Below, piece by piece: positions 37,345-51,539 of a stretch of DNA of 64,000 bases. Below the pieces are notes generated by a model. It was not told where the DNA came from and did no database searches. It saw only the letters and a list, made by a program, of their open reading frames with translations. The translations under genes and the position numbers were made by a program. The first letter of the stretch is position 1, and every line of letters starts with the position of its first letter. The stretch is from an uncultured Sphingomonadaceae bacterium (GTDB lineage: Bacteria; Pseudomonadota; Alphaproteobacteria; Sphingomonadales; Sphingomonadaceae). The DNA is taken from the NCBI GenBank assembly GCA_947493955.1, contig CANLSQ010000001.1, forward strand, positions 310,001 to 374,000. The letters are read 5' to 3'.

Positions 37345-38802
37345 ATGACCACTTCTTCCCCACGCCAATCCTTGGCGCTATGCGACAGCCCAGCAGAGGC
37401 CGTCGCTCTTCTCGAAAAACTCTACCAAGAACAAATTGATCTGATCACTGCGCGTTTTGCTCGCTATGCGAAAGGCGATTTGTCTGACGGCGACCGCGAA
37501 CAGGGCGTTTACCCTATGATTTCGGTCGAAATTCCAGCCGATCAAGCCACCGAAACCAGCAATCTGGCTTCTGGCCGGATTTCCGACATAAATTGCTACA
37601 GCACGACGATTAGTCAGCCGAAACTGTATCGGCGCTATCTGCTCGATCAGCTAGAGCGGATCAACCGGGTGTTCACAGCAAAAATCCATGTTGGACTGTC
37701 CGACACACCGATCCCATTGGCCTTCGCCATTGAAAATGCCGCTGGTGGGCTCGATCGGGATCGCAAAGATGCGTTGCCCAATCATTTCCACACACCCAAT
37801 CTGGTCAAGACCAATGACGAGATCGTCGATGGCGGCCAGATTTTTCAGGATCACGTCGATAGCGCGCTGTCCCTCTTCACCGCTGAACGGGTGGACTATT
37901 CGCTCCACCGTATCCGCCACTATTGCGCGACCGATCCGGAATATTTCCAGCCCTTCATATTATTTACCAACTATCAGCGCTACGTGGATGAGTTTATCGA
38001 ATTTGGTCTGGAAGAGGTGAAGTCCGGCAAGGCAGAAATGCTGGTTGAGCCAGGTAACCGTGTCACGGGTGCCGATGGCAAACCATCCTGTCCACCAATT
38101 GCAAAACCACCGCAAATGCCGGCCTATCATCTGGTCCGCAAAGACGGCCGCCCGGGTGTCACTTTGGTCAATATGGGTGTCGGCCCTTCCAATGCGAAGA
38201 CGATTACTGATCATCTGGCCGTCTTGCGCCCGCATGTCTGGCTGATGATCGGTCACTGCGGCGCGCTGCGCCGAACGCAGCGACTGGGCGACTACGTTCT
38301 GGCGCACGCCTATCTGCGCGATGACAATGTCCTCGATGATGTTTTGCCGCCCAGCATTCCATTGCCAACCATTGCCGAAGTGCAGCTCGCACTGACCAAA
38401 GCGGTGCAGGAAGAAACTGGCATTGACCAGTCGCAACTCAAACAGCATTTGCGCACTGGCACCGTCGTTACCACTGGCGACCGCAACTGGGAGCTGCGCT
38501 TTGAGCAGATTGCGAAACGGCTGAATCAGTCGCGCGCCATCGCCATCGACATGGAATCCGCAACCGTCGCGGCCAATGGCTATCGCTACCGTGTGCCTTA
38601 CGGGACTTTGCTTTGTGCGTCGGACAAGCCGCTCCACGGCGAAATCAAACTCCCGGGTATGGCCGATGCTTTCTACCAGGAGCGGGTCGGGCAGCATCTG
38701 GCGATTGGTTTGCGGACAATCGATCTACTGGCCCAAGAGGCAGATGCCGGTACCTTGCATAGCCGCAAATTACGCAGCTTTGGCGAACCCCTCTTTCGGT
38801 AG
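37345..38802 (+). CDS. amn: AMP nucleosidase
   Basis: A 485-residue enzyme that splits AMP to adenine and ribose 5-phosphate. An N-terminal AMN-specific domain (about 1-180) precedes a nucleoside-phosphorylase-like catalytic domain with LVNMGVGPSNAKTITDHLAVL, GHCGALR, the base-binding region and IDMESATVAANGYRYRVPYG. Length and motif order match E. coli Amn. Monocistronic by context, 56 nt after the ATP12 gene. A palindromic repeat begins 10 nt after its stop. Confidence 0.94.
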   Translation: MTTSSPRQSLALCDSPAEAVALLEKLYQEQIDLITARFARYAKGDLSDGDREQGVYPMISVEIPADQATETSNLASGRISDINCYSTTISQPKLYRRYLLDQLERINRVFTAKIHVGLSDTPIPLAFAIENAAGGLDRDRKDALPNHFHTPNLVKTNDEIVDGGQIFQDHVDSALSLFTAERVDYSLHRIRHYCATDPEYFQPFILFTNYQRYVDEFIEFGLEEVKSGKAEMLVEPGNRVTGADGKPSCPPIAKPPQMPAYHLVRKDGRPGVTLVNMGVGPSNAKTITDHLAVLRPHVWLMIGHCGALRRTQRLGDYVLAHAYLRDDNVLDDVLPPSIPLPTIAEVQLALTKAVQEETGIDQSQLKQHLRTGTVVTTGDRNWELRFEQIAKRLNQSRAIAIDMESATVAANGYRYRVPYGTLLCASDKPLHGEIKLPGMADAFYQERVGQHLAIGLRTIDLLAQEADAGTLHSRKLRSFGEPLFR

Positions 38803-40180: not shown

Positions 40181-41176
40181 TTAGCCCCCAACGCCCAAGG
40201 CCATTCCCGCCTCGCGAATCCGTTTGGCCTCTGCGCCATCATTCTTGAACGCCGCCAATCCGTCGGCTAGTGCCTTTTTGGCTTTGGCAGTTTGACCCAG
40301 TTGCATGCGGCTGCGCATCAGCATGATCCAGCCGTTTGCATCGTTGGGATTGGATTGCAGCCGTTGATCCAGGCCATCCACCATATTCGCGATCATCGCT
40401 TCTTGCTGACCGGCGGGCAAGGCGGCGGCCTCTTGCATTTGCTGGCGGCTGGGGCCGGGAATCGCTGCGGTAGCAACTTGCGGGCCGTCGGTGGAGATGC
40501 CGCCTGTGGGCGCCGCTGGGGTAACCTTGGCGAGCCGCGCGGCCACGTCGATATTTTCCTTTTCGGCAACTTGTCCGATCACGCGGCGAATATCTGCAGC
40601 ATAAGGTGCATCTGCCGGCGTGTCTTCGAGCAACGCGAACCAGTCATTGATGGCGCCTTTGTGATCACCCGAAATATCCTTTTGCACCGCCAGGAAATAG
40701 CGCGCGCGCGGATCACTCTTGTCAATGGCCAGCGCCTTTCTGAACGCATCCGCGGCATCGCCGGGCACTTGCTGCCCGTCGCTGGACATGACCAGCGCTT
40801 CACCCAGCATGGACCAATATTCGGCATTATCGGGATCAAGCGTCGTTGCGCGTTTCATCGCCGTGGCGGATTCGGCATATTTTTCGGTTTCGAAATAGCT
40901 CCAACCCAGCATGCGCCAGCTTTCAGCATCTTCGGGATCATCCTGAAGCTTTTTTTCAAGGCCGGCGATGACTTCATCGACACTGGGCGCCGTTTCGGTT
41001 TCACCAGACGCCGCTTGGGTATCCGCGCTGCTGCCTGATCCAGCGGTGTCCATGCCGCGATAGACCTGCACACCAACCGCTCCGATTGCCAGGACGGCGG
41101 CAGATATCAGGGCAACACGACTGATATTGCCGGTCGCCTTTTTGCCGGATGGTGCTGTTTCTTCTGGCTCGCTCAT
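40181..41176 (-). CDS. TPR protein, CcmI/CycH-like (c-type cytochrome biogenesis)
   Basis: About 331 residues. A cytoplasmic N-terminus is followed by one membrane helix (ISRVALISAAVLAIGAVGVQVY). A periplasmic part then has TPR motifs (ESWRMLGWSYFETEKYAESATAMKRATTLDPDNAEYWSMLGEAL, given as positions about 85-130) and a last CcmI-like block ending in QLGQTAKAKKALADGLAAF. It resembles the TPR part of CcmI, which hands apocytochrome to the heme ligation machinery. It is divergent from the heme-rich cluster at 41.4 kb. The start ATG at 41176 is chosen over a TTG at 41251. Other ccm genes are not in the window. Confidence 0.78.
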   Translation of the reverse strand: MSEPEETAPSGKKATGNISRVALISAAVLAIGAVGVQVYRGMDTAGSGSSADTQAASGETETAPSVDEVIAGLEKKLQDDPEDAESWRMLGWSYFETEKYAESATAMKRATTLDPDNAEYWSMLGEALVMSSDGQQVPGDAADAFRKALAIDKSDPRARYFLAVQKDISGDHKGAINDWFALLEDTPADAPYAADIRRVIGQVAEKENIDVAARLAKVTPAAPTGGISTDGPQVATAAIPGPSRQQMQEAAALPAGQQEAMIANMVDGLDQRLQSNPNDANGWIMLMRSRMQLGQTAKAKKALADGLAAFKNDGAEAKRIREAGMALGVGG

Positions 41177-41451
41177 CTCTAAAACCCGTTCCTTAACTGG
41201 TGCGACCCAGTTGATCGCCTCGCATTGTCGTAAACTGTACCGCTTTGACAAGCATTTTGTTTCAGATTTTCGATAGTGACCAAAGCGGTTCTAACTGTGA
41301 TATTTTCCACTGGCATATCAAAAGCTTTTTGGTAAGATGCTGGTAAGTTAAGTCTTTTGGGGTCGCGCTAGAGCCGGAAAACTTGCCGCATTGGTCCGTT
41401 AAACGCATGAGGGAGCGTTGGGCCAAGAAGGGCAAAAGGGGGAAGAAGCGC

Positions 41452-43902
41452 GTGGCGGACAAGTTTCGAGTGGTGATCGTGGGATCGGGACCAGCGGGCA
41501 TGAGTGCTGCTGGCCGTGCCGCACAGTTGAAGCTGAAACATGTGCTGCTGGAAAAGACTGACCATCTTTCCGACACCATCTACAAATATCAAAAAGGCAA
41601 GCACGTCATGGCGACGCCGAGCCAGCTGGTGCTGCGTTCGGATATGGATTTTGACGCGGGCAAGCGTGAAGCGATCCTGGAAATCTGGGACAAGCAAACC
41701 GAAGCTTGTGCGGTCAATGTTCAATATAATGCCGAGCCGGTCAAGATCGAAGGCGAAGAAGGTGATTTCACTATCACGTTGAAAAACGGTGATAAAGTGA
41801 TGGCCGAGACCATTGTCATGGCGATCGGAACGCAGGGCAATCCCAACCTGATGCGTTGTCCGGGCGGGGACAACAAGCTGGTGCAATATCAGCTGGATGA
41901 TCCGGGCGAATATTATGACGAGCATATCACCGTGATCGGTTCCGGTGATGCCGGGATTGAAAATGCGCTCGGTCTCGCGGCCGATGCGGCTCAGAATAAT
42001 ATTGTCACGATCCTCAATCGCTCGCCGGAATTTGCGCGTGCAAAAAAGGCTAACGTAAAGCTGCTCATGGAAGCAGGCGAGCAGGGTAAAGTTGATGTCC
42101 GTACCGAAACAACTCCGGCGGAAGTCAAGGATGGCGAGTTGGTGCTCGAAACCCGCGATGGGCAGGAAACAATCAAGTGCGACCGGATCATTGCACGCAT
42201 GGGATCAGCACCGCCGCGCAAATTTGTCGAGGAGTGCGGGATTGAGTTTACCAGCGAGGATCGCGAAGCCTATCCCAAGCTGACGCCCGCATTCGAGAGT
42301 ACCAAGAAGGGTATCTATGTCATCGGTGCGCTGGCCGGTTATCCGCTGATCAAGCACTGTATGAACCAGGGCTATGACGTCATTGAATTCATCAACGGTA
42401 ACAAGGACCTGAAGCCGGCGGACGAACCAATACTCGAGAAGAAATTTGCAGACCTGCCCGGTGGCAAGTCGGTCGACGAGTGGCTGGAATTTTTCCGTGA
42501 GCGGGTCACTATTCTTAACGAGCTATCATCACTGCAGATGCGCGAATTCATGCTCGACAGCGAACCGCGCCGTTATCGTCGCGGCGAGGTGGTTTTCGAG
42601 AAGAATGAACCGGGCTCATCGCTGTTCGCCATTGCCGAAGGTTCGGTCGCGGTCGAGATTGATCCCAATGATCCGTCGATCACAGTACCCATTGAGGAAG
42701 GATCAATCTTCGGCGAAGTTGGCCTGATATCCGGTCGCCGCCGCGGTGCGACCGTCAACGCAGCTGAAGACCTGATCGTTGTAGAAATTTCCCGCACGGC
42801 GGCGTTGAAACTGCAGGCCTCGGTGCCAGCTGCCAAGCGCGCCATCACACGTATTTCCACGGAACGCCAGTTGCTGCAGATGTTTGGTTCCGGCCTGACC
42901 AAAGACGATATCTCCGAGGTTGTCGAGGGCAGCGAGATCATGAATGTCAGGGCTGGCGAAGCGATTATCGAGGAAGGCAGCGAGGGCAATGACATCTACG
43001 TCATTCGCGTCGGATCGATGGTGGTGGAAAAGAAAATTGGTGGCAAGCCGGTGTTCCTGTCCTATCTGCCAGCTGGTTCCTATGTCGGGGAAATGACCCT
43101 GATCGCTGGCGGTATGCGCACCGCGACTGTAAAGGCGGCGATCAAATCGGAAGTTATCAAGATTAACGGCGATGCCTTCAAGAAGGTGCTCGACAAGCAT
43201 CCCGACCTGATGCGCAAGGCCAAGCAGGAAATGGCTTCGCGGCAGGATATCAACGCCTTTGTCGAAGCCAAGAAGGATAGCTTCTCCGGCGTGGTGGATT
43301 ATTATTCCGGCGTTGCCAATTTTCTCGTCGACAATGGCATCGGCGAAGCAACCGACGTATTGCTGATCGACGAGAATCTCTGTGTCGGCTGTGACAATTG
43401 TGAAAAGGCCTGCGCCGACAGCCATGAAGGCCTGTCCCGTCTCGACCGTGAAGCGGGCCGGACCTATGCGCATCTGCACGTCCCGACCAGTTGTCGCCAC
43501 TGCGAGCATCCGCACTGTATGTCTGATTGCCCACCTGATGCGATCCACCGTGGTCCGGACGGAGAGGTCTTCATCGACGACACCTGCATCGGCTGCGGCA
43601 ATTGTCAGCGCTATTGCCCTTATGGCGTGATCCGCATGGACAAGGTGCCGCCGAAGAAACCGGGCTTGCTCAGCTGGCTGTTTTTCGGTAGCGGGCCCGG
43701 CCCCGGTGAGCCCGACAAGCAATGGGCGGCGGAAAACAGCGATCCCGAAGTCGAGAAACCGAAAAAAGCGATCAAATGCGATATGTGTGCCGGCATCAAC
43801 GGCGGCCCGGCCTGTGTCCGTGCCTGTCCCACGGGGGCCGCGATCCGCGTGGCACCTGAGGAATTCCTGACTGTCGCCAAGCTAGAGCAGGAGGACGCGT
43901 GA
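41452..43902 (+). CDS. NAD(P)H/FAD oxidoreductase - dual cyclic-nucleotide-binding - 4x[4Fe-4S] fusion protein
   Basis: About 816 residues (numbering from the GTG at 41452) in three blocks. Residues 1-340: a two-dinucleotide-fold flavoprotein with GSGPAG (11-16) for FAD, GSGDAG (163-168) for NAD(P)H and IYVIGALAG near 290; there is no CxxC, so it is not a thioredoxin reductase. Residues about 365-620: two cNMP-binding domains with intact phosphate cassettes, FGEVGLISGRRRGATV (Glu422, Arg431) and VGEMTLIAGGMRTATV (Glu547, Arg556). Residues about 640-810: sixteen cysteines in four CxxC...CP-type motifs (C644-654, C681-693, C712-722, C776-792), a DmsB/NrfC-like four-cluster ferredoxin. There is no signal peptide, so it is cytoplasmic. 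The GTG has GGGGGAAG upstream; ATG 41407 and TTG 41383 would add a very basic leader. It overlaps the cytochrome b-like gene by 1 nt. Confidence 0.88.
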   Translation: MADKFRVVIVGSGPAGMSAAGRAAQLKLKHVLLEKTDHLSDTIYKYQKGKHVMATPSQLVLRSDMDFDAGKREAILEIWDKQTEACAVNVQYNAEPVKIEGEEGDFTITLKNGDKVMAETIVMAIGTQGNPNLMRCPGGDNKLVQYQLDDPGEYYDEHITVIGSGDAGIENALGLAADAAQNNIVTILNRSPEFARAKKANVKLLMEAGEQGKVDVRTETTPAEVKDGELVLETRDGQETIKCDRIIARMGSAPPRKFVEECGIEFTSEDREAYPKLTPAFESTKKGIYVIGALAGYPLIKHCMNQGYDVIEFINGNKDLKPADEPILEKKFADLPGGKSVDEWLEFFRERVTILNELSSLQMREFMLDSEPRRYRRGEVVFEKNEPGSSLFAIAEGSVAVEIDPNDPSITVPIEEGSIFGEVGLISGRRRGATVNAAEDLIVVEISRTAALKLQASVPAAKRAITRISTERQLLQMFGSGLTKDDISEVVEGSEIMNVRAGEAIIEEGSEGNDIYVIRVGSMVVEKKIGGKPVFLSYLPAGSYVGEMTLIAGGMRTATVKAAIKSEVIKINGDAFKKVLDKHPDLMRKAKQEMASRQDINAFVEAKKDSFSGVVDYYSGVANFLVDNGIGEATDVLLIDENLCVGCDNCEKACADSHEGLSRLDREAGRTYAHLHVPTSCRHCEHPHCMSDCPPDAIHRGPDGEVFIDDTCIGCGNCQRYCPYGVIRMDKVPPKKPGLLSWLFFGSGPGPGEPDKQWAAENSDPEVEKPKKAIKCDMCAGINGGPACVRACPTGAAIRVAPEEFLTVAKLEQEDA

Positions 43903-44783
43903 TGGCTTCTGTTCCTGTTCCCGGTGATGTCGCGAAAAAGAAAGTCGCCATGCATGACGGCTTCCTTAAACATGCGGGTTATAAATGGCTGAAAATTGCC
44001 TCTTTCATCATGCTGCTATCCATTGTCAGCTATCTCTTCATCGACGTCTCGCCGCGTCATAATGGCGGCAGCTGGTATGGTTATACGCTTGGCACGATCG
44101 GGGCTGGGCTGATCCTGTGGCTGACCATGCTTGGTGTCCGCAAGCGCGCAATGACACCGGGCAAATGGTCGCTCAAGGCCTGGACCTCGGCGCATATCTA
44201 TCTTGGCCTCAGCCTGATTGTTATCGGCACATTGCACACCGGCTTTCAATTTGGCTGGAACATTCACACGGCAGCTTATGCCTTCATGATGATCGTGATC
44301 ATCTCCGGCATTGTCGGCATCTATTTCTACGCAACCATCCCGCAATCCCTGTCTAACAATCGTGACGAGATGACCGAGACGCAGATGCTGGAAAGCCTGC
44401 GCTCGCTCGACCGGCAACTGCATGAAGCGGCTCAACCGTTGTCGGCAGAACATGCCGCTTTGGTGCTCCAATCGCTGGAACAGGACCCATTTGGCGGCGG
44501 TTTCCTCAAACGGGTGTCCGGAAAATATCCCAATTGCGCTACCCGCGCTGCGCAGGCTGATTTGCGGCGAGAACGTGCTTATCAGCCTCGCATGGGCGGG
44601 GACGACCCGCTGGACAAGGTTGATGCGCTGCTTGAGAAAAAGGAAGCGACGCTCGCCCGCGTCCGCCGCCATCTTAGGCTGAAAGCGCTGCTGCAGGTTT
44701 GGTTGTTCATCCATGTGCCCATGACCTTCGCGCTGATCGCATCGCTATCGGCGCATATCATTAGCGTTTTCTTTTACTGGTAG
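43902..44783 (+). CDS. Membrane cytochrome b-like subunit of the electron-transfer cluster
   Basis: About 293 residues with five predicted helices (about 30-50, 60-80, 95-115, 123-145, 264-290) and a charged cytoplasmic loop of roughly 115 residues between helices 4 and 5. Histidines in or beside helices 3, 4 and 5 (SAHIYLGL, TLHTGFQ, NIHTAAYAF, FIHVPMTFAL, SAHIISVF) can ligate heme b, as in cytochrome b561/NrfD-like anchors. GGAGG lies just before the ATG; a GTG at 43899 is an alternative. It sits between the soluble ferredoxin fusion and the decaheme gene, the expected place for the membrane link. Family not firmly recognised. Confidence 0.8.
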   Translation: MASVPVPGDVAKKKVAMHDGFLKHAGYKWLKIASFIMLLSIVSYLFIDVSPRHNGGSWYGYTLGTIGAGLILWLTMLGVRKRAMTPGKWSLKAWTSAHIYLGLSLIVIGTLHTGFQFGWNIHTAAYAFMMIVIISGIVGIYFYATIPQSLSNNRDEMTETQMLESLRSLDRQLHEAAQPLSAEHAALVLQSLEQDPFGGGFLKRVSGKYPNCATRAAQADLRRERAYQPRMGGDDPLDKVDALLEKKEATLARVRRHLRLKALLQVWLFIHVPMTFALIASLSAHIISVFFYW

Positions 44784-44798
44784 GCGGGAGATAGACTG

Positions 44799-46667
44799 AT
44801 GACCTTTATCGTTCGCCAAATTGCCGTCACCGCTGATGGGCGTGAAATTATCCGTTCCAATCCGTTCACGGATGCTGAAATCGGGATCGGCCGTAACACG
44901 GCAAATGCGATCCATCTGCCTGACCTTGCCGTCAATCCCGACCATGCGGTTATTCGCCAGCTTGAAGACGGCCAGATTGAGATTGAAAGTATCTCGGGCC
45001 AGAAATTCTCGGTTGATGGCCGCGACCAGATGTCGGCAACCATTGATCCTGGTGCCGGTGCTGAAATTGGTTTTGGCGGCCATGTCATAGCGGTCAGCCA
45101 AGGCGAAGAAGGTGTGACCCTGACCGTCAAACGGGTCGAAGCGCTTTCGGATTCCGCACAAGAGAGGGAAGAGGGCGCGCTATATACCTTGAAAGGTCTT
45201 TTGCCGGGGAAGCGGATCAGCGCGTGGGGTTTTGTCGGACTTATGCTTGCCGCATTCCTGATCTGGCCAATCTACACATGGGCCACTTATCGCGGCGTCG
45301 AAGAGCGGCCTGAGGGTTTTCATGCTGACACGATGTGGTCATCCGGTGCGCTCAGTGACGCGCATCATAGCCTGGAAGGCGATTGCCAGGCCTGCCACGT
45401 CGATGCCTTTGTGACGGTGACAGATAAAACCTGTCTCAACTGCCATGAAGATGATGCGCATGATCATGCCAAGAAAGACCGCCTGCTCACTGCCATGGGA
45501 GAACCCGAAGGATTTGAAAAAGTCGGCGCGGCTTTTGCCTCGGCCTTTAACAAACCACCCGGCAGGTGTGTCGAATGTCACACCGAGCATGAAGGGGCAG
45601 GTGCTATGGAGCCTACTGCGCAAAAATTCTGCGCGGATTGTCACGAGGGAATGGACGGGCGTTTGACCGATACAGAGCTTGAAAATGCGTCGGATTTCGG
45701 GATTTCACACCCGCAGTTTCGTCCTGCTTTGCTGGTCCAGCCTGGCGGCAAAAATCCACCTCGCATGCGGGTTTCACTCGATGACAAGCCCACTGAATAT
45801 AATGGTCTGAAATTCCCGCATGATGTGCATATGTCAAAAACCGGCGGGGTCGCGCAAATGGGGCGGCGGCTGTCGGCGAAATTTGGTTTTGGCGATTCGC
45901 TGGTCTGTGCAGACTGCCATACGCCGGATTCGAACGGCGTTCGGTTTGAGCCCGTGGACATGGAGGAAGACTGCGCGATGTGCCACAGTCTTGCCTTCGA
46001 GGAAATTGGCAACACGGTGCGAACGCTGCGCCACGGCGAACCGGATATGGTGCGGGCGGACCTGCGCGCCTATTACCGGTCCACCGGTCCTTCGCGGCCA
46101 ATTAATCTTGGCGGTATGAAGCGGCGACGTCCGGGTGCAGAAAATGACAATAGGGTGGCAAGCGATTATGCGCGTGCTGTCCAGTTCCGACCAAGCCGCG
46201 CAAACTTGGCGATCCAGCAGGTATTTTCACGCGGCGGCGCCTGTTTCGATTGCCATGGCGTCACGCCACCGACGGCGCGCGGACGGGTTGACTATGGTAT
46301 CAAGCCGGTAACGCAGACTGATCGTTATATGCACAAAGGCTGGTTTAGCCATGAAGCGCATAATGACGAGGATTGCACCTCCTGCCACGCAGCGACGACA
46401 TCGGACAATGCGCGCGACCTGCTGTTGCCCGGCATCAAAACCTGCCGTGAATGTCATGGCGGTGAGTTCCAGAAAAGCTCCGATGTTCCATCGAGCTGCG
46501 CCATGTGTCATGATTACCATGCCGATGACGGTGCGCCCTGGCTGATCAAGGAGCAGCAGAAGGACAAACGGAAAAAACCTGACAAGGTGGCGAATGATAA
46601 TGAGGCGCTTAAGCCTTCCGACAAGCTGAAAGTTAAGATAAGAAAGCAGAAGATTGCCAGTCGTTAG
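44799..46667 (+). CDS. FHA domain - transmembrane - decaheme cytochrome c protein
   Basis: A 622-residue protein. Residues about 1-110 form an FHA domain (IGIGRNTANAIHLPDLAVNPDHAVI region), in which the usual Ser-Arg of the phosphothreonine site is Asn-Pro. Residues about 143-163 are the only membrane helix. The remainder holds ten CxxCH heme motifs with cysteines starting at 196, 212, 257, 278, 370, 392, 482, 526, 549 and 567, like cytochrome c3/multiheme families, plus spare histidines (DAHH, HTEHE, FPHDVHM, WFSHEAH) as distal ligands. This predicts FHA in the cytoplasm and hemes in the periplasm, with no cleaved signal peptide. The C-terminus is lysine-rich. It starts 15 nt after the cytochrome b-like gene. 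Confidence 0.9.
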   Translation: MTFIVRQIAVTADGREIIRSNPFTDAEIGIGRNTANAIHLPDLAVNPDHAVIRQLEDGQIEIESISGQKFSVDGRDQMSATIDPGAGAEIGFGGHVIAVSQGEEGVTLTVKRVEALSDSAQEREEGALYTLKGLLPGKRISAWGFVGLMLAAFLIWPIYTWATYRGVEERPEGFHADTMWSSGALSDAHHSLEGDCQACHVDAFVTVTDKTCLNCHEDDAHDHAKKDRLLTAMGEPEGFEKVGAAFASAFNKPPGRCVECHTEHEGAGAMEPTAQKFCADCHEGMDGRLTDTELENASDFGISHPQFRPALLVQPGGKNPPRMRVSLDDKPTEYNGLKFPHDVHMSKTGGVAQMGRRLSAKFGFGDSLVCADCHTPDSNGVRFEPVDMEEDCAMCHSLAFEEIGNTVRTLRHGEPDMVRADLRAYYRSTGPSRPINLGGMKRRRPGAENDNRVASDYARAVQFRPSRANLAIQQVFSRGGACFDCHGVTPPTARGRVDYGIKPVTQTDRYMHKGWFSHEAHNDEDCTSCHAATTSDNARDLLLPGIKTCRECHGGEFQKSSDVPSSCAMCHDYHADDGAPWLIKEQQKDKRKKPDKVANDNEALKPSDKLKVKIRKQKIASR

Positions 46668-46694
46668 CGGCGACATAACAGAGAGGAAGCGCCC

Positions 46695-47543
46695 ATGATC
46701 TTGGCGCAGGTAACGGATATCCATCTCGGTTTTGACCCAGATAATCCGTCGGAATTTAACCGCAAGCGCCTCGATCAGGCGCTCAAGGTCCTGTGCGAGA
46801 TGACACCGCGACCTGACGCTTTATTGGCTACGGGCGACCTAGTGGATCGCGGTGATCAGGATAGCTATATGCGACTGGAACAGGCTTTTTCCGACCTGCC
46901 GTTTCCTGTTTATATGTGTCTGGGCAATCATGACCTGCGCGGCCCGTTCCAAAAACAGTTTCCCGACGTGCCCTCAGCAGATGGCTTTGTCCAATATGAG
47001 ATTGATGATGGCCCGCTGCGTTTGCTGTTTCTGGATACGCTGGAAGAGGGGCGTCACGGGGGCGCCTTTTGCGAAGTTCGGGCGCGGTGGTTGACCGAAA
47101 GACTGGCCGAGAAACAGGACAAGCCGACTTTGCTCATCATGCATCATCCTCCTGTAGAATCTGGTATTGCATGGATGAATACCGATCCGCGTGAGCCATG
47201 GGTGTCGGTGCTGGCCGAAACGATTGCAGGGCATGACCAGATCAAGGGTATGATTACTGGCCACCTGCACCGGAATATTTCAACGTCTTTTGAAGGCACA
47301 AGTCTTTCGATTTGTGCGTCCACCGCACCGCAGGTTGCGTTTGACCTGGAACCGATTGATCCTGAAAACCCTGATGGTCGCAATATGATTGTCGCGGACC
47401 CGCCGGCCATTGCATTACACTGGTGGAATGGCAAACAGCTCGTCAGTCATTTCGAGACGGCCGAAGAACACGTGATGCTCGCCCGCTATGACGAGAATCT
47501 GCAGCCGCTGGTGCGCGCCTTGCTGGCTGAACGACCTGATTGA
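46695..47543 (+). CDS. Class III cyclic-nucleotide phosphodiesterase-like metallophosphoesterase (CpdA-like)
   Basis: A 282-residue calcineurin-fold enzyme. All metal ligand motifs are seen in order: TDIH (Asp8, His10), GDLVDRG, GNHDLR, IMHHPP and GHLHRN. This set and spacing match CpdA/Rv0805-type enzymes that hydrolyse cAMP or cGMP, although some relatives prefer other phosphodiesters. It lies 27 nt after the FHA-decaheme gene and near two cyclic-nucleotide-binding domains, which favours a cyclic-nucleotide substrate. AGAGAGGAAG precedes the ATG. Confidence 0.85.
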   Translation: MILAQVTDIHLGFDPDNPSEFNRKRLDQALKVLCEMTPRPDALLATGDLVDRGDQDSYMRLEQAFSDLPFPVYMCLGNHDLRGPFQKQFPDVPSADGFVQYEIDDGPLRLLFLDTLEEGRHGGAFCEVRARWLTERLAEKQDKPTLLIMHHPPVESGIAWMNTDPREPWVSVLAETIAGHDQIKGMITGHLHRNISTSFEGTSLSICASTAPQVAFDLEPIDPENPDGRNMIVADPPAIALHWWNGKQLVSHFETAEEHVMLARYDENLQPLVRALLAERPD

Positions 47544-48998: not shown

Positions 48999-49004
48999 TC
49001 ATTG

Positions 49005-49772
49005 GTGCGGATTACTGCTTTGTGTTTGGCCCTCGCAGCAATCATGGGGCTGTTTTCGCAATGTAGTCCGGCAGCTACCAATTTGCAGAACGAGAATTCT
49101 GCCGCCGCCAAAGTCCAGCTGATGACCAGTCTGCCGATTGTCTGGGGCGAGGGCGCATCAATGAAGAGCATCGTTTCCGGCGAAGCGTCTCCAGCCCCGA
49201 TTTATGCGCATTGGCAGCAGCAACATGATATAACCGCAGTGGACAGTTTTGCCGGGCTGGAAAATTCCGATACCGATGTGATCTTGCTGGCCCAGCCACC
49301 CGCAATGGACCCGGCCGACATCGCGGTGGTTGACGCCTGGGTGCGGGCAGGCGGCAAGGCAATTATCCTGACCGATCCGATGCTGGTATGGCACACGGAA
49401 TTTCCCATTGGTGATAATCGCAGACCACTGACGTCCGGTTTGCTATCCCCTTTGCTGGGGCACTGGGGCCTCGAACTGCTGGCACCTGATGGTGATGGAG
49501 CGGGCGGCGTGGAACTCGAATTTCCCGATGCCAGGATATCAACTGTCGGTATCGGGACTTTCAAGGCCGCGGCAGAGCGTGAAGACAGTCATGCCGACTG
49601 TGCGTTCAGCGCTGGCAATGTGATGGCACGCTGTTCTGTCGGCAAGGGGGCAGTGATTATCGTCGCAGACGCTGATTTTCTGAATGATGCTCTATGGTCA
49701 AATCAGACCGGGGAAGACATGGGTGATGCACGGGAATTGATGGACAGTTTGATCGCTGATTTGCAAAAATAG
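49005..49772 (+). CDS. Exported protein resembling GldG/DUF4350-type domains
   Basis: About 255 residues. A signal-like N-terminus (ITALCLALAAIMGLFSQCSPAA) could be a lipoprotein signal, but the position before the Cys is Gln, not the usual small residue. The middle (TDVILLAQPPAMDPADIAVVDAWVRAGGKAIILTDP) looks like the GldG/DUF4350 class-I-amidotransferase-like fold found with ABC-2 transporters. No transporter is adjacent. The start is GTG 49005 or TTG 49002; AGGAG is 12 or 9 nt upstream. Function unknown. Confidence 0.72.
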   Translation: MRITALCLALAAIMGLFSQCSPAATNLQNENSAAAKVQLMTSLPIVWGEGASMKSIVSGEASPAPIYAHWQQQHDITAVDSFAGLENSDTDVILLAQPPAMDPADIAVVDAWVRAGGKAIILTDPMLVWHTEFPIGDNRRPLTSGLLSPLLGHWGLELLAPDGDGAGGVELEFPDARISTVGIGTFKAAAEREDSHADCAFSAGNVMARCSVGKGAVIIVADADFLNDALWSNQTGEDMGDARELMDSLIADLQK

Positions 49773-50088: not shown

Positions 50089-50577
50089 GTGTCAGGCAAT
50101 TACGCTTATTCAGGATCGGGAATTTCCACGATAGACGACAAAGGTCGCCTGTCCGTTCCTGCGTTCCTGCGCAAAGACCTGATCGCCAGCAGCGACGGCC
50201 GCGTTCTGTGCCTTGGCAAACATGAAAAATGGGACTGTCTGGTTGGTTTTGGCCTCAGCCGCAAAATTGATATGCTCGCGGAAATCGACAAGGAAGAAGA
50301 AATCGCCATTGCGCGTTCTGAACCTTATGACCGCGATGCCGCTGGCGCTCGCAAATTCTCGACCCTGCAGGAGCTCAGCTTCGACGCGAGTGGCCGCTTT
50401 GTTCTACCGCCCATGTTGCAAGCGATTGGCGGCCTGAAAGACAATGTCCTCTTTCACGGTATCGGCAAAACATTTTGCCTTTGGGCGCCACAGGCGCTGC
50501 TCGACATAACCAACGATGTGCCAGTGGACAAGCGTCTGGTGGAATTTCATCTCAGCGAATTGGGGAAAAAGAAATGA
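50089..50577 (+). CDS. mraZ: Transcriptional regulator MraZ
   Basis: A 162-residue protein made of two AbrB-like swapped-hairpin modules. In E. coli it forms a ring that binds repeats upstream of its own gene and represses the dcw cluster. Module 1 contains [26 protein letters not shown], split here by a GTG start at 50089; module 2 is [16 protein letters not shown]. It is slightly longer than E. coli MraZ, as usual for alphaproteobacteria. The stop overlaps rsmH (ATGA). The repeat array lies 120-170 bp upstream. Confidence 0.94.
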
Positions 50578-51539
50578 CCCCAAATGAAGCGATGTCCCAG
50601 ACCAAGCCCCATATTCCCGTCCTGCTTGACGAAGTCATCGATGCGCTCGCCATTACCCCGGGCGAAACGCATGTCGATGGCACGTTCGGTGCCGGCGGAT
50701 ACAGCATGGCGATGATTGCTGCTGGCGCAAAAGTACATGGCTTTGATCAGGATCCTGATGCCATTGCTGGCGGAGCATCATTGGTCGAAGCCTCTGACGG
50801 CCAGCTGGTCTTGCACCATGGCTATTATTCGCAAATGGCGGATGTCTTGGAAGGCGAAGATATTGACGGCGTCACCCTGGATATCGGTGTCTCTTCAATG
50901 CAGCTGGATCAAGCCGAACGTGGATTTTCTTTCCAGAAAGACGGCCCACTCGACATGCGTATGTCGCAAGATGGCCCCAGCGCTGCAGACTTTTTGAACG
51001 AAGCGGACGAAGAAGAAATTGCCGATGTCATCTATCGCTATGGCGAAGAACGGCGTTCGCGGAAAATTGCCAAGGCGATAGTCAACGCGCGCCCGCTAAC
51101 CCGCACTTCCGAACTGGCTAGTGTCGTTCGCAAAGCTTTGGGTCAAAAGCCTGGCGACAAGAAAGATCCAGCAACCCGGACCTTTCAGGCCATTCGCATC
51201 CATATCAATCGCGAGCTTGGTGAACTGGAAGATGGCTTGGTCGCTGCGGAGCGACTGCTGAAACCAGGTGGCCGTCTTGCCATCGTCACCTTTCACAGCC
51301 TTGAAGATCGTATCGTTAAAAATTTCCTGCGTGACCGCAGCGGCCAAAAATCCGCTGGTTCACGCCATCTACCCCAAGTTTCCGAAACACGGCCGGCACC
51401 CACCTTTCATAAACCAGCCAAACTGGTGCGTCCGGCCGGGGCGGAGCAGGTCTCTAATCCCCGAGCCCGCTCCGCCACCCTCAGATCAGCGGTGCGTTCC
51501 GATGCACCAAGCCATGCGAAGACGGGAGGCGTTCAATGA
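50574..51539 (+). CDS. rsmH: 16S rRNA (cytosine1402-N4)-methyltransferase
   Basis: About 321 residues. Class I SAM methyltransferase acting on 16S C1402. [11 protein letters not shown] opens the domain, GTFGAGGYS is the SAM motif, and [19 protein letters not shown] and [17 protein letters not shown] are RsmH hallmarks. The ATG at 50574 overlaps mraZ by 4 nt; a second ATG at 50592 is possible. Its end overlaps ftsL by 4 nt. Confidence 0.95.

Follow-up and report, generated by a model that had tools for sequence, protein, structure and literature searches.

A candidate cyclic-nucleotide-gated electron conduit from NAD(P)H to multiheme cytochromes in alpha- and gammaproteobacteria

A 64,000-nucleotide window of contig CANLSQ010000001.1 (assembly GCA_947493955.1, positions 310,001 to 374,000), from an uncultured Sphingomonadaceae bacterium, carries three consecutive genes that we interpret as the core of a regulated electron-transfer system. 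These encode FNF, a fusion of a flavoprotein, two cyclic nucleotide-binding domains (CNBDs) and a ferredoxin module for four [4Fe-4S] clusters; CYB, a b-type cytochrome-like membrane protein; and MHC, a decaheme protein. We consider it probable (roughly 0.6) that the three form an inner-membrane complex moving electrons from NAD(P)H through flavin adenine dinucleotide (FAD), iron–sulfur (Fe-S) clusters, heme b and the decaheme to a periplasmic or outer-membrane set of proteins, under the control of the CNBDs. This reading is drawn from the genes, their motifs, conservation, fusions and co-occurrence, and what it proposes beyond them is the complex itself, its cofactors, direction of flow, gating, ligand and acceptor.

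Distribution and co-occurrence of the core genes

A scan for relatives of CYB returned 102 stretches encoding them, of which the best 80 were analysed as loci. These span Sphingomonadales, Caulobacterales, Hyphomonas-type alphaproteobacteria and gammaproteobacteria (for example Solimonas and Fontimonas), and the FNF-CYB-MHC set recurs across both classes at 38-99% CYB identity. FNF is present in 74/80 loci, adjacent to CYB and on the same strand in 73, and MHC in 79/80; the locus scored as non-adjacent is probably L081, whose CYB frame extends from stop to stop over the preceding gene. Two of the six loci without FNF lie at contig ends (L051, L073) and the other four form a clade (L072, L074, L076, L082) whose genomes all hold a full-length FNF. 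In the sole clade contig long enough to display it, that of L072, the order is CYB-MHC-HbpS-barrel-giant-C554-FNF (the additional genes are described below), with FNF about 12 kb on. Judged by its recurrence, the FNF-CYB-MHC arrangement is far beyond chance.

The same pattern is seen at the level of whole genomes. Among 398 genomes sampled from the phylum, FNF (E<=1e-100) and CYB (E<=1e-60) were each found in 15, and the two sets of genomes are identical; seven further genomes gave weak CYB matches only (E 6e-9 to 2.5e-15). In two genomes FNF and CYB are fused into one open frame (L133, 1125 amino acids; L134, 1120 amino acids), the genomes being G449 (1120 residues) and G554 (1125 residues; Pfam was run on this one). 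Such single-frame fusions are direct evidence that FNF and CYB work together and, with the conserved order and matching occurrence, provide strong evidence that the two belong to one complex. A preliminary description of this locus had inferred a single complex from the window alone, and its inference stands up well to the wider comparison, in which homologues of the core genes are not regularly found apart. Within the genus of the window, FNF was found in 24/24 genomes, three of them with a split or partial copy, and the giant multiheme gene in 23/24, a count that excludes a G030 match at E 6.4e-4 over 90 residues; a full FNF or giant was found in 0/16 other genomes of the order.

Flavin-less relatives of the system were encountered among the weak CYB matches, which came from the seven phylum-sample genomes and nine genomes of a class sample (G146 belonging to both). 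Nine of these 15 loci were taken for analysis, and in seven (L136, L137, L138, L140, L148, L149, L150) a 572-613-residue frame near CYB matches FNF in its CNBD and Fe-S regions and not in its flavin region, with a C554-like gene nearby in every case. Of the remaining two, L139 holds CYB only, and in L147 CYB is accompanied by a TPR gene and by a flavin-type frame that is separate. Pfam found cNMP_binding and 4Fe-4S domains in the two flavin-less proteins searched, and an alignment of all seven shows that Glu and Arg are retained in the first CNBD and that the cassette is lost in the second. CNBD, Fe-S and CYB may therefore represent an older core, to which the NADPH-oxidising part was added in FNF.

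Two observations concern the records themselves. FNF lies on very large plasmids in Sphingobium, in pMSHV (L110; NZ_CP020539.1) and in 11 further plasmid records, with 1/12 typed as conjugative. L072, L085 and L091 derive from metagenome-assembled records titled Klebsiella pneumoniae or Bordetella parapertussis, which look mislabelled given their environmental gene set.

Conserved features of the core proteins

Pfam assigns to FNF a Pyr_redox_2/3 region, two cNMP_binding stretches and several 4Fe-4S domains. We aligned 79 of 86 FNF sequences after a length filter and then added 14 divergent FNFs, giving 93 in total, with the two fused proteins cut at residue 860. The 16 ferredoxin cysteines show no variation in the first alignment (79/79) or after the divergent additions (93/93). 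FNF scores below the cut-off of the DmsB-type equivalog TIGR02951 (59.9 vs 214.1 bits). The flavin domain has conserved glycine motifs at residues 34-39 and 186-191, corresponding to two dinucleotide folds, and is closest to YpdA/Bdr (7a76, E 4.4e-19), with the ferredoxin-NADP reductase 5ygq also matched (E 7.3e-7). The YpdA-type Cys was not found among the 79 aligned FNFs, in which position 38 is occupied by A (70 sequences) or G (9), and no CxxC occurs in the flavin domain of the window's FNF. An arginine following the second Rossmann fold, R213, is kept in 92/93 FNFs and would suit NADPH. One genome, G424, carries two full-length FNF genes (contigs C96 and C17).

The Glu and Arg of both CNBD cassettes (E445, R454, E570, R579) are invariant in 93/93 FNFs, down to ~41% identity, and this conservation supports both domains as ligand-competent. 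Among proteins of known structure, the tandem is related mostly to regulatory regions of PKA/PKG and to CRP. The residue after the cassette Arg is Gly in 66, Ser in 18, Thr in 8 and Asn in 1 of the 93 sequences for the first domain; for the second it is Thr/Ser in 75/93, the others being Val, Asn, Gly and Ile. A small residue at this place is PKA-like (cassette RAA) and a Thr is PKG-like, so the two CNBDs may differ in ligand preference. A cAMP/cGMP-type ligand is plausible, as the window's own genome contains three Guanylate_cyc (adenylate/guanylate cyclase-type) matches over cut-off and a phosphodiesterase gene (PDE) is adjacent in sphingomonads.

The structural model of CYB has five long hydrophobic helices and a helical domain (mean predicted local distance difference test score, pLDDT, 84.5). 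In an alignment of 91/92 sequences retained by the length filter, H98, H112, H122, H271 and H285 are identical in every row covering them. Among eight distant relatives, H98, H112, H271 and H285 are kept in 8/8 and H122 in 0/8. The four form two pairs spaced 14 residues apart, H98/H112 and H271/H285, in 15/15 rows including the eight distant relatives, and map to predicted helices 91-113 and 236-292. CYB is diheme-b-like, and charge and helix order suggest a pairing of H98 with H271 and of H112 with H285. Pfam gave only a sub-threshold Ni_hydr_CYTB match (18.5 vs 30.1 bits, E 0.0018), and a Foldseek search with the model returned nothing at E<=0.001. Structural matches from VIA are mostly unrelated helical bundles, with weak rows for cytochrome b561 (4o6y) and STEAP1 (8ucd). 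We therefore assign CYB to no fold family.

In the window's MHC, Pfam recognises Cytochrome_C7/c3, and the FHA domain scores 19.1 bits against a cut-off of 20.7. The protein has 10 CXXCH motifs, as have most relatives, with 9 in L044, L077 and L086 and 7 in L078. The phosphothreonine-binding loop of FHA domains comprises GR, Ser and His. Among the 74/91 MHC sequences left after the length filter, R32 and H49 of this loop are found in 72/74 rows and the Ser position is variable; the rows include the FHA-less L072 and L074 and an L082 sequence wrongly extended at its N-terminus. FHA is missing from the MHC of L072, L074 and L082, for which complete rows are available, and the MHC of L076 is cut by the contig end. 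We considered whether FHA serves to dock FNF, since both at first seemed to be missing from this clade, and rejected the idea: all four genomes hold a full-length FNF, at the far end of the gene row in the contig of L072, so FHA has been lost while FNF stays. On this comparison FHA is dispensable in MHC, as the clade without it keeps the remaining system.

The closest NCBIfam profiles to PDE are SpdA (138.9 of 400 bits) and CpdA (78.7 of 225 bits), both below their cut-offs; 43/47 PDE sequences were aligned. Its placement varies: among the 79 loci with MHC, PDE is directly downstream in 35 and ~5 kb off in 11, and none is seen in 33, of which 11 have <1.2 kb of sequence left. None of L070-L092 has it directly downstream, although 17 of these 23 have >1.2 kb of downstream sequence. 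A role as core subunit was accordingly rejected, and by its distribution PDE is a lineage-specific accessory.

The preliminary description fares well on the modules of these proteins. The two nucleotide folds, the two CNBDs, the 16 ferredoxin cysteines, the FHA-helix-decaheme chain (FHA being sub-threshold in Pfam) and a five-helix CYB with histidines inside its predicted helices are all recovered. Its more general claims need narrowing. The flavin, Fe-S, heme b and multiheme modules of the proposed chain are supported, and CNBD-Fe-S fusions also occur without flavin; the FHA part of MHC, present in the window, is absent from one clade; and PDE, a SpdA/CpdA-like phosphoesterase, is not a core component.

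Partner genes, proposed electron path and alternatives

Clustering of neighbouring genes together with profile searches showed that the gammaproteobacterial operons add an HbpS-like double-domain protein, a predicted outer-membrane-type barrel and a giant multiheme protein, and that a tetraheme C554-like family joins these three genes. The best NCBIfam profile of the giant is ExtM, at 74.1 bits for L071 (cut by the locus end) and 65.6 for L028, against a cut-off of 800. LVIVD repeats occur in the full-length alphaproteobacterial giant (L028); the gammaproteobacterial copy tested is truncated by the locus end. In a class sample of 385 genomes searched for CYB and giant, 37 had CYB at E<1e-80; the 29 genomes with giant all belong to these 37, and giant was found in 0/348 others (Fisher p 1e-36, uncorrected for ancestry). 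Giant is lacking from 8/37 CYB genomes. CYB lies within 15 kb of giant in 23 of the 29 holders, on a different contig in five, and far apart in the window's own genome, where C554, HbpS, barrel and giant stand together 1.42 Mb from FNF-CYB-MHC. On Sphingobium herbicidovorans pMSHV the whole set occupies ~17.4 kb, as TPR, FNF, CYB, MHC, PDE and two small genes followed on the opposite strand by giant, barrel, HbpS (annotated 'heme-binding protein') and C554; the eight genes of the system cluster there within ~16 kb. Judged by this co-occurrence, the system extends beyond FNF-CYB-MHC to C554, the HbpS-like protein, barrel and giant; the preliminary description captured the core, and the partner set lies outside the row of genes it covered.

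An acetolactate-synthase-type thiamine pyrophosphate (TPP) enzyme (PRK08322, 879.6 bits) and an aldehyde dehydrogenase precede the partner operon of the window's genome (L097:1028-4137; contig C1, ~1761028-1764137), and Phenylobacterium-type loci have relatives of this pair in the vicinity of FNF-CYB-MHC. The barrel has no Pfam match. Its model (L068) has 18 strands at a mean pLDDT of 62, with low-confidence stretches including residues 17-101 and 454-503, and its best PDB match is AlgE (E 2.5e-15), followed by OprD-type pores. MtrB has ~26 strands, and at this level of model confidence the 18-stranded, AlgE-like barrel does not appear to be an Mtr-type sheath.

In the path we propose, NADPH (or NADH) would pass a hydride to FAD in the flavin domain of FNF, from which single electrons would travel through the four [4Fe-4S] clusters to the diheme b pair of CYB, where H98/H271 would lie toward the cytoplasm and H112/H285 toward the periplasm, before entering the decaheme of periplasmic MHC. 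MHC would pass them to the C554 tetraheme, the giant decaheme, the HbpS-like protein and the predicted 18-strand barrel, a set that would reduce an acceptor located in the periplasm or farther out. The CNBDs would make or break the contact between flavin and clusters: in the chain they separate the flavin from the Fe-S module, and nucleotide binding could thus set the distance or angle between the two. A bolder proposal, which we hold only tentatively, is that core and distant operon make up a single conduit leading from the cytoplasm to the outside, with FAD, 4 Fe-S, 2 heme b and 24 heme c, and belonging to a new, second-messenger-gated class, with the tandem PKA/PKG-like CNBDs as the allosteric switch on a wire from NADPH to b and c hemes and with cAMP/cGMP setting the rate of reductant discharge. 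If true, electron exit would be controlled by direct messenger binding, beyond transcription alone, and aerobic alphaproteobacteria would possess a reductant-disposal or extracellular route, plasmid-borne in Sphingobium, that is hidden behind annotations such as 'hypothetical protein', 'cyclic nucleotide-binding domain-containing protein' and 'cytochrome c3 family protein'. It could also offer a switchable NADPH-to-multiheme module for bioelectrochemistry.

There are other possible explanations for the same genes. A substantial possibility, short of even odds, is that the inner-membrane module works as proposed and the giant is a terminal reductase in the periplasm, with an AlgE/OprD-type barrel as its substrate pore. 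The 18-strand model with its AlgE and OprD-type matches and the co-encoded HbpS-like protein both fit such an arrangement, but confidence in the barrel model is modest, and the LVIVD repeats of the L028 giant and the lipobox-like start (by eye) of the HbpS-like protein in the window's genome would suit surface proteins too. It is rather doubtful that the CNBDs have no gating function, serving as structural spacers or binding nucleotide for assembly only, in which case the complex would be an unregulated NAD(P)H dehydrogenase feeding c hemes. The loss of the cassette from the second CNBD-like stretch of the flavin-less family and the poor conservation of an adjacent PDE are in keeping with it; the invariant Glu and Arg of both cassettes across the 93 FNFs, and the regulatory PKA/PKG and CRP relatives of the tandem, weigh against it.

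The proposed direction of flow could also be reversed, with an extracellular or periplasmic donor reducing NAD(P)+ through the multihemes under cyclic-nucleotide control. Nothing in the anatomy of the complex fixes a direction, but a periplasmic donor would have to be of very low potential to reduce NADP+ without energy input, and a non-exhaustive look among the conserved neighbours recognised no ion-pumping subunit; we regard this version as unlikely. That FNF is a thiol-disulfide reductase of the YpdA/TrxR kind fused to sensors, donating no electrons to CYB, is very improbable: its flavin domain is indeed closest to YpdA/Bdr, but it has neither a CxxC nor the YpdA-type Cys, and it is covalently joined to the Fe-S module and, in two genomes, to CYB.

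Each module of the proposed conduit is known, and what is unusual is a sensor built into a transmembrane NAD(P)H-to-multiheme conduit. DmsB-type subunits and Hmc/Qrc/Dsr-type complexes likewise place a four-cluster ferredoxin module beside a membrane anchor and multiheme c; DMSO_dmsB and DsrO match FNF, and HmcB and QrcC also match a flavin-less relative, all far below cut-offs. The anchor of Hmc/Qrc/Dsr-type complexes is an NrfD-type protein, whereas CYB has four histidines and its partner FNF has flavin and CNBDs fused in. NADPH oxidases, STEAP proteins and cytochrome b561 have NAD(P)H or flavin at one face of the membrane and heme b across it, to which FNF-CYB-MHC adds four [4Fe-4S] clusters between flavin and heme, a decaheme exit and CNBDs; the CYB rows for 4o6y and 8ucd are too weak for a claim of homology. 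The flavin domain is shared with YpdA/Bdr and TrxR-like ferredoxin-NADP reductases, the catalytic Cys being absent in FNF, and the tandem of intact CNBD cassettes with PKA/PKG regulatory regions and CRP, although in FNF it is joined to a redox chain in place of a kinase or DNA-binding part.

For the outer set, the Geobacter ext cluster shows a similar grouping of porin and multihemes and supplies the giant's best profile, ExtM, at a score far below the 800-bit cut-off; as described in PMC5877670, the ext cluster includes a Rieske protein along with a cytochrome b of the bc type. The MtrCAB, Pcc and Uet conduits also combine a periplasmic multiheme, a barrel and a large multiheme, in contrast to which the barrel here is predicted to be 18-stranded and AlgE-like; a cytoplasmic flavin/CNBD input is not mentioned for those conduits in the excerpts available. 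A Gallionellaceae protein cluster (cluster 403, 'Forkhead-associated protein', 10 hemes, table count 27; PMC10734462) may be related to MHC, to judge from the table description, which gives FHA and ten hemes. The combination of modules and the eight-gene extent were not found in the literature searched, which covered few subscription papers and no preprints.

Layout of the locus and neighbouring genes

Translation of the window's open reading frames (ORFs) confirmed four at the locus on the plus strand, FNF, CYB, MHC and PDE (Table 1), packed as first described with the fourth 27 bp after the third. FNF ends at 43902, where the ATG of CYB overlaps its stop by one base, and has possible starts at TTG 41383, ATG 41407 and GTG 41452. 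We favour the GTG because the entire open frame of the relative in G017 is 817 amino acids long and so begins no earlier than about residue 23; a purine-rich stretch (by eye) lies just upstream of this GTG.

Table 1. Features of the locus in the window and of the partner operon in the same genome
Feature	Position	Strand	Remarks
FNF, flavoprotein / two CNBDs / four [4Fe-4S] fusion	41452..43902	+	ORF open from TTG 41383; Pfam
FNF flavin/NAD(P)H domain, two dinucleotide folds	41464..42372	+	Residues 28-330 (numbering from 41383); closest known structures YpdA/Bdr
FNF first CNBD	42568..42813	+	Cassette FGEVGLISGRRRGATV; E445, R454
FNF second CNBD	42895..43242	+	Cassette VGEMTLIAGGMRTATV; CRP profile match, residues 505-620; E570, R579, T580
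FNF DmsB-like ferredoxin domain	43360..43842	+	16 invariant Cys in four groups
CYB, b-type cytochrome-like protein	43902..44783	+	Five predicted membrane helices; H98, H112, H122, H271, H285 conserved
MHC, N-terminal FHA-like domain, one hydrophobic helix, C-terminal decaheme domain	44799..46667	+	Helix ~45213-45281 by eye
PDE, calcineurin-type phosphoesterase, SpdA/CpdA-like, accessory	46695..47543	+	Pfam Metallophos
Divergent TPR protein, cytochrome c biogenesis H/CycH type	40181..41251	-	TPR_CcmH_CycH
C554 (partner operon)	L097 4390-5796		
HbpS-like protein (partner operon)	L097 5796-7796		
Barrel (partner operon)	L097 7835-9910		
Giant (partner operon)	L097 9912-14072		Ten CXXCH

The divergent TPR gene that precedes FNF belongs to the CcmH/CycH type, a family of cytochrome c maturation, and its cluster (cluster 5) was found in 28 loci; the neighbour gene maps show the longest ORFs, some of them spurious and antisense (clusters 4, 6 and 9). 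On the far side of the operon (49002-49772 and 50089-51539) an ORF matching ABC_transp_aux (3.9e-13) is followed by ORFs resembling mraZ and rsmH by eye, and the conduit operon may thus lie close to a division and cell wall cluster. Upstream, at 37345-38802, a 485-residue ORF is AMP nucleosidase-like by eye, and its cluster is restricted to near relatives.

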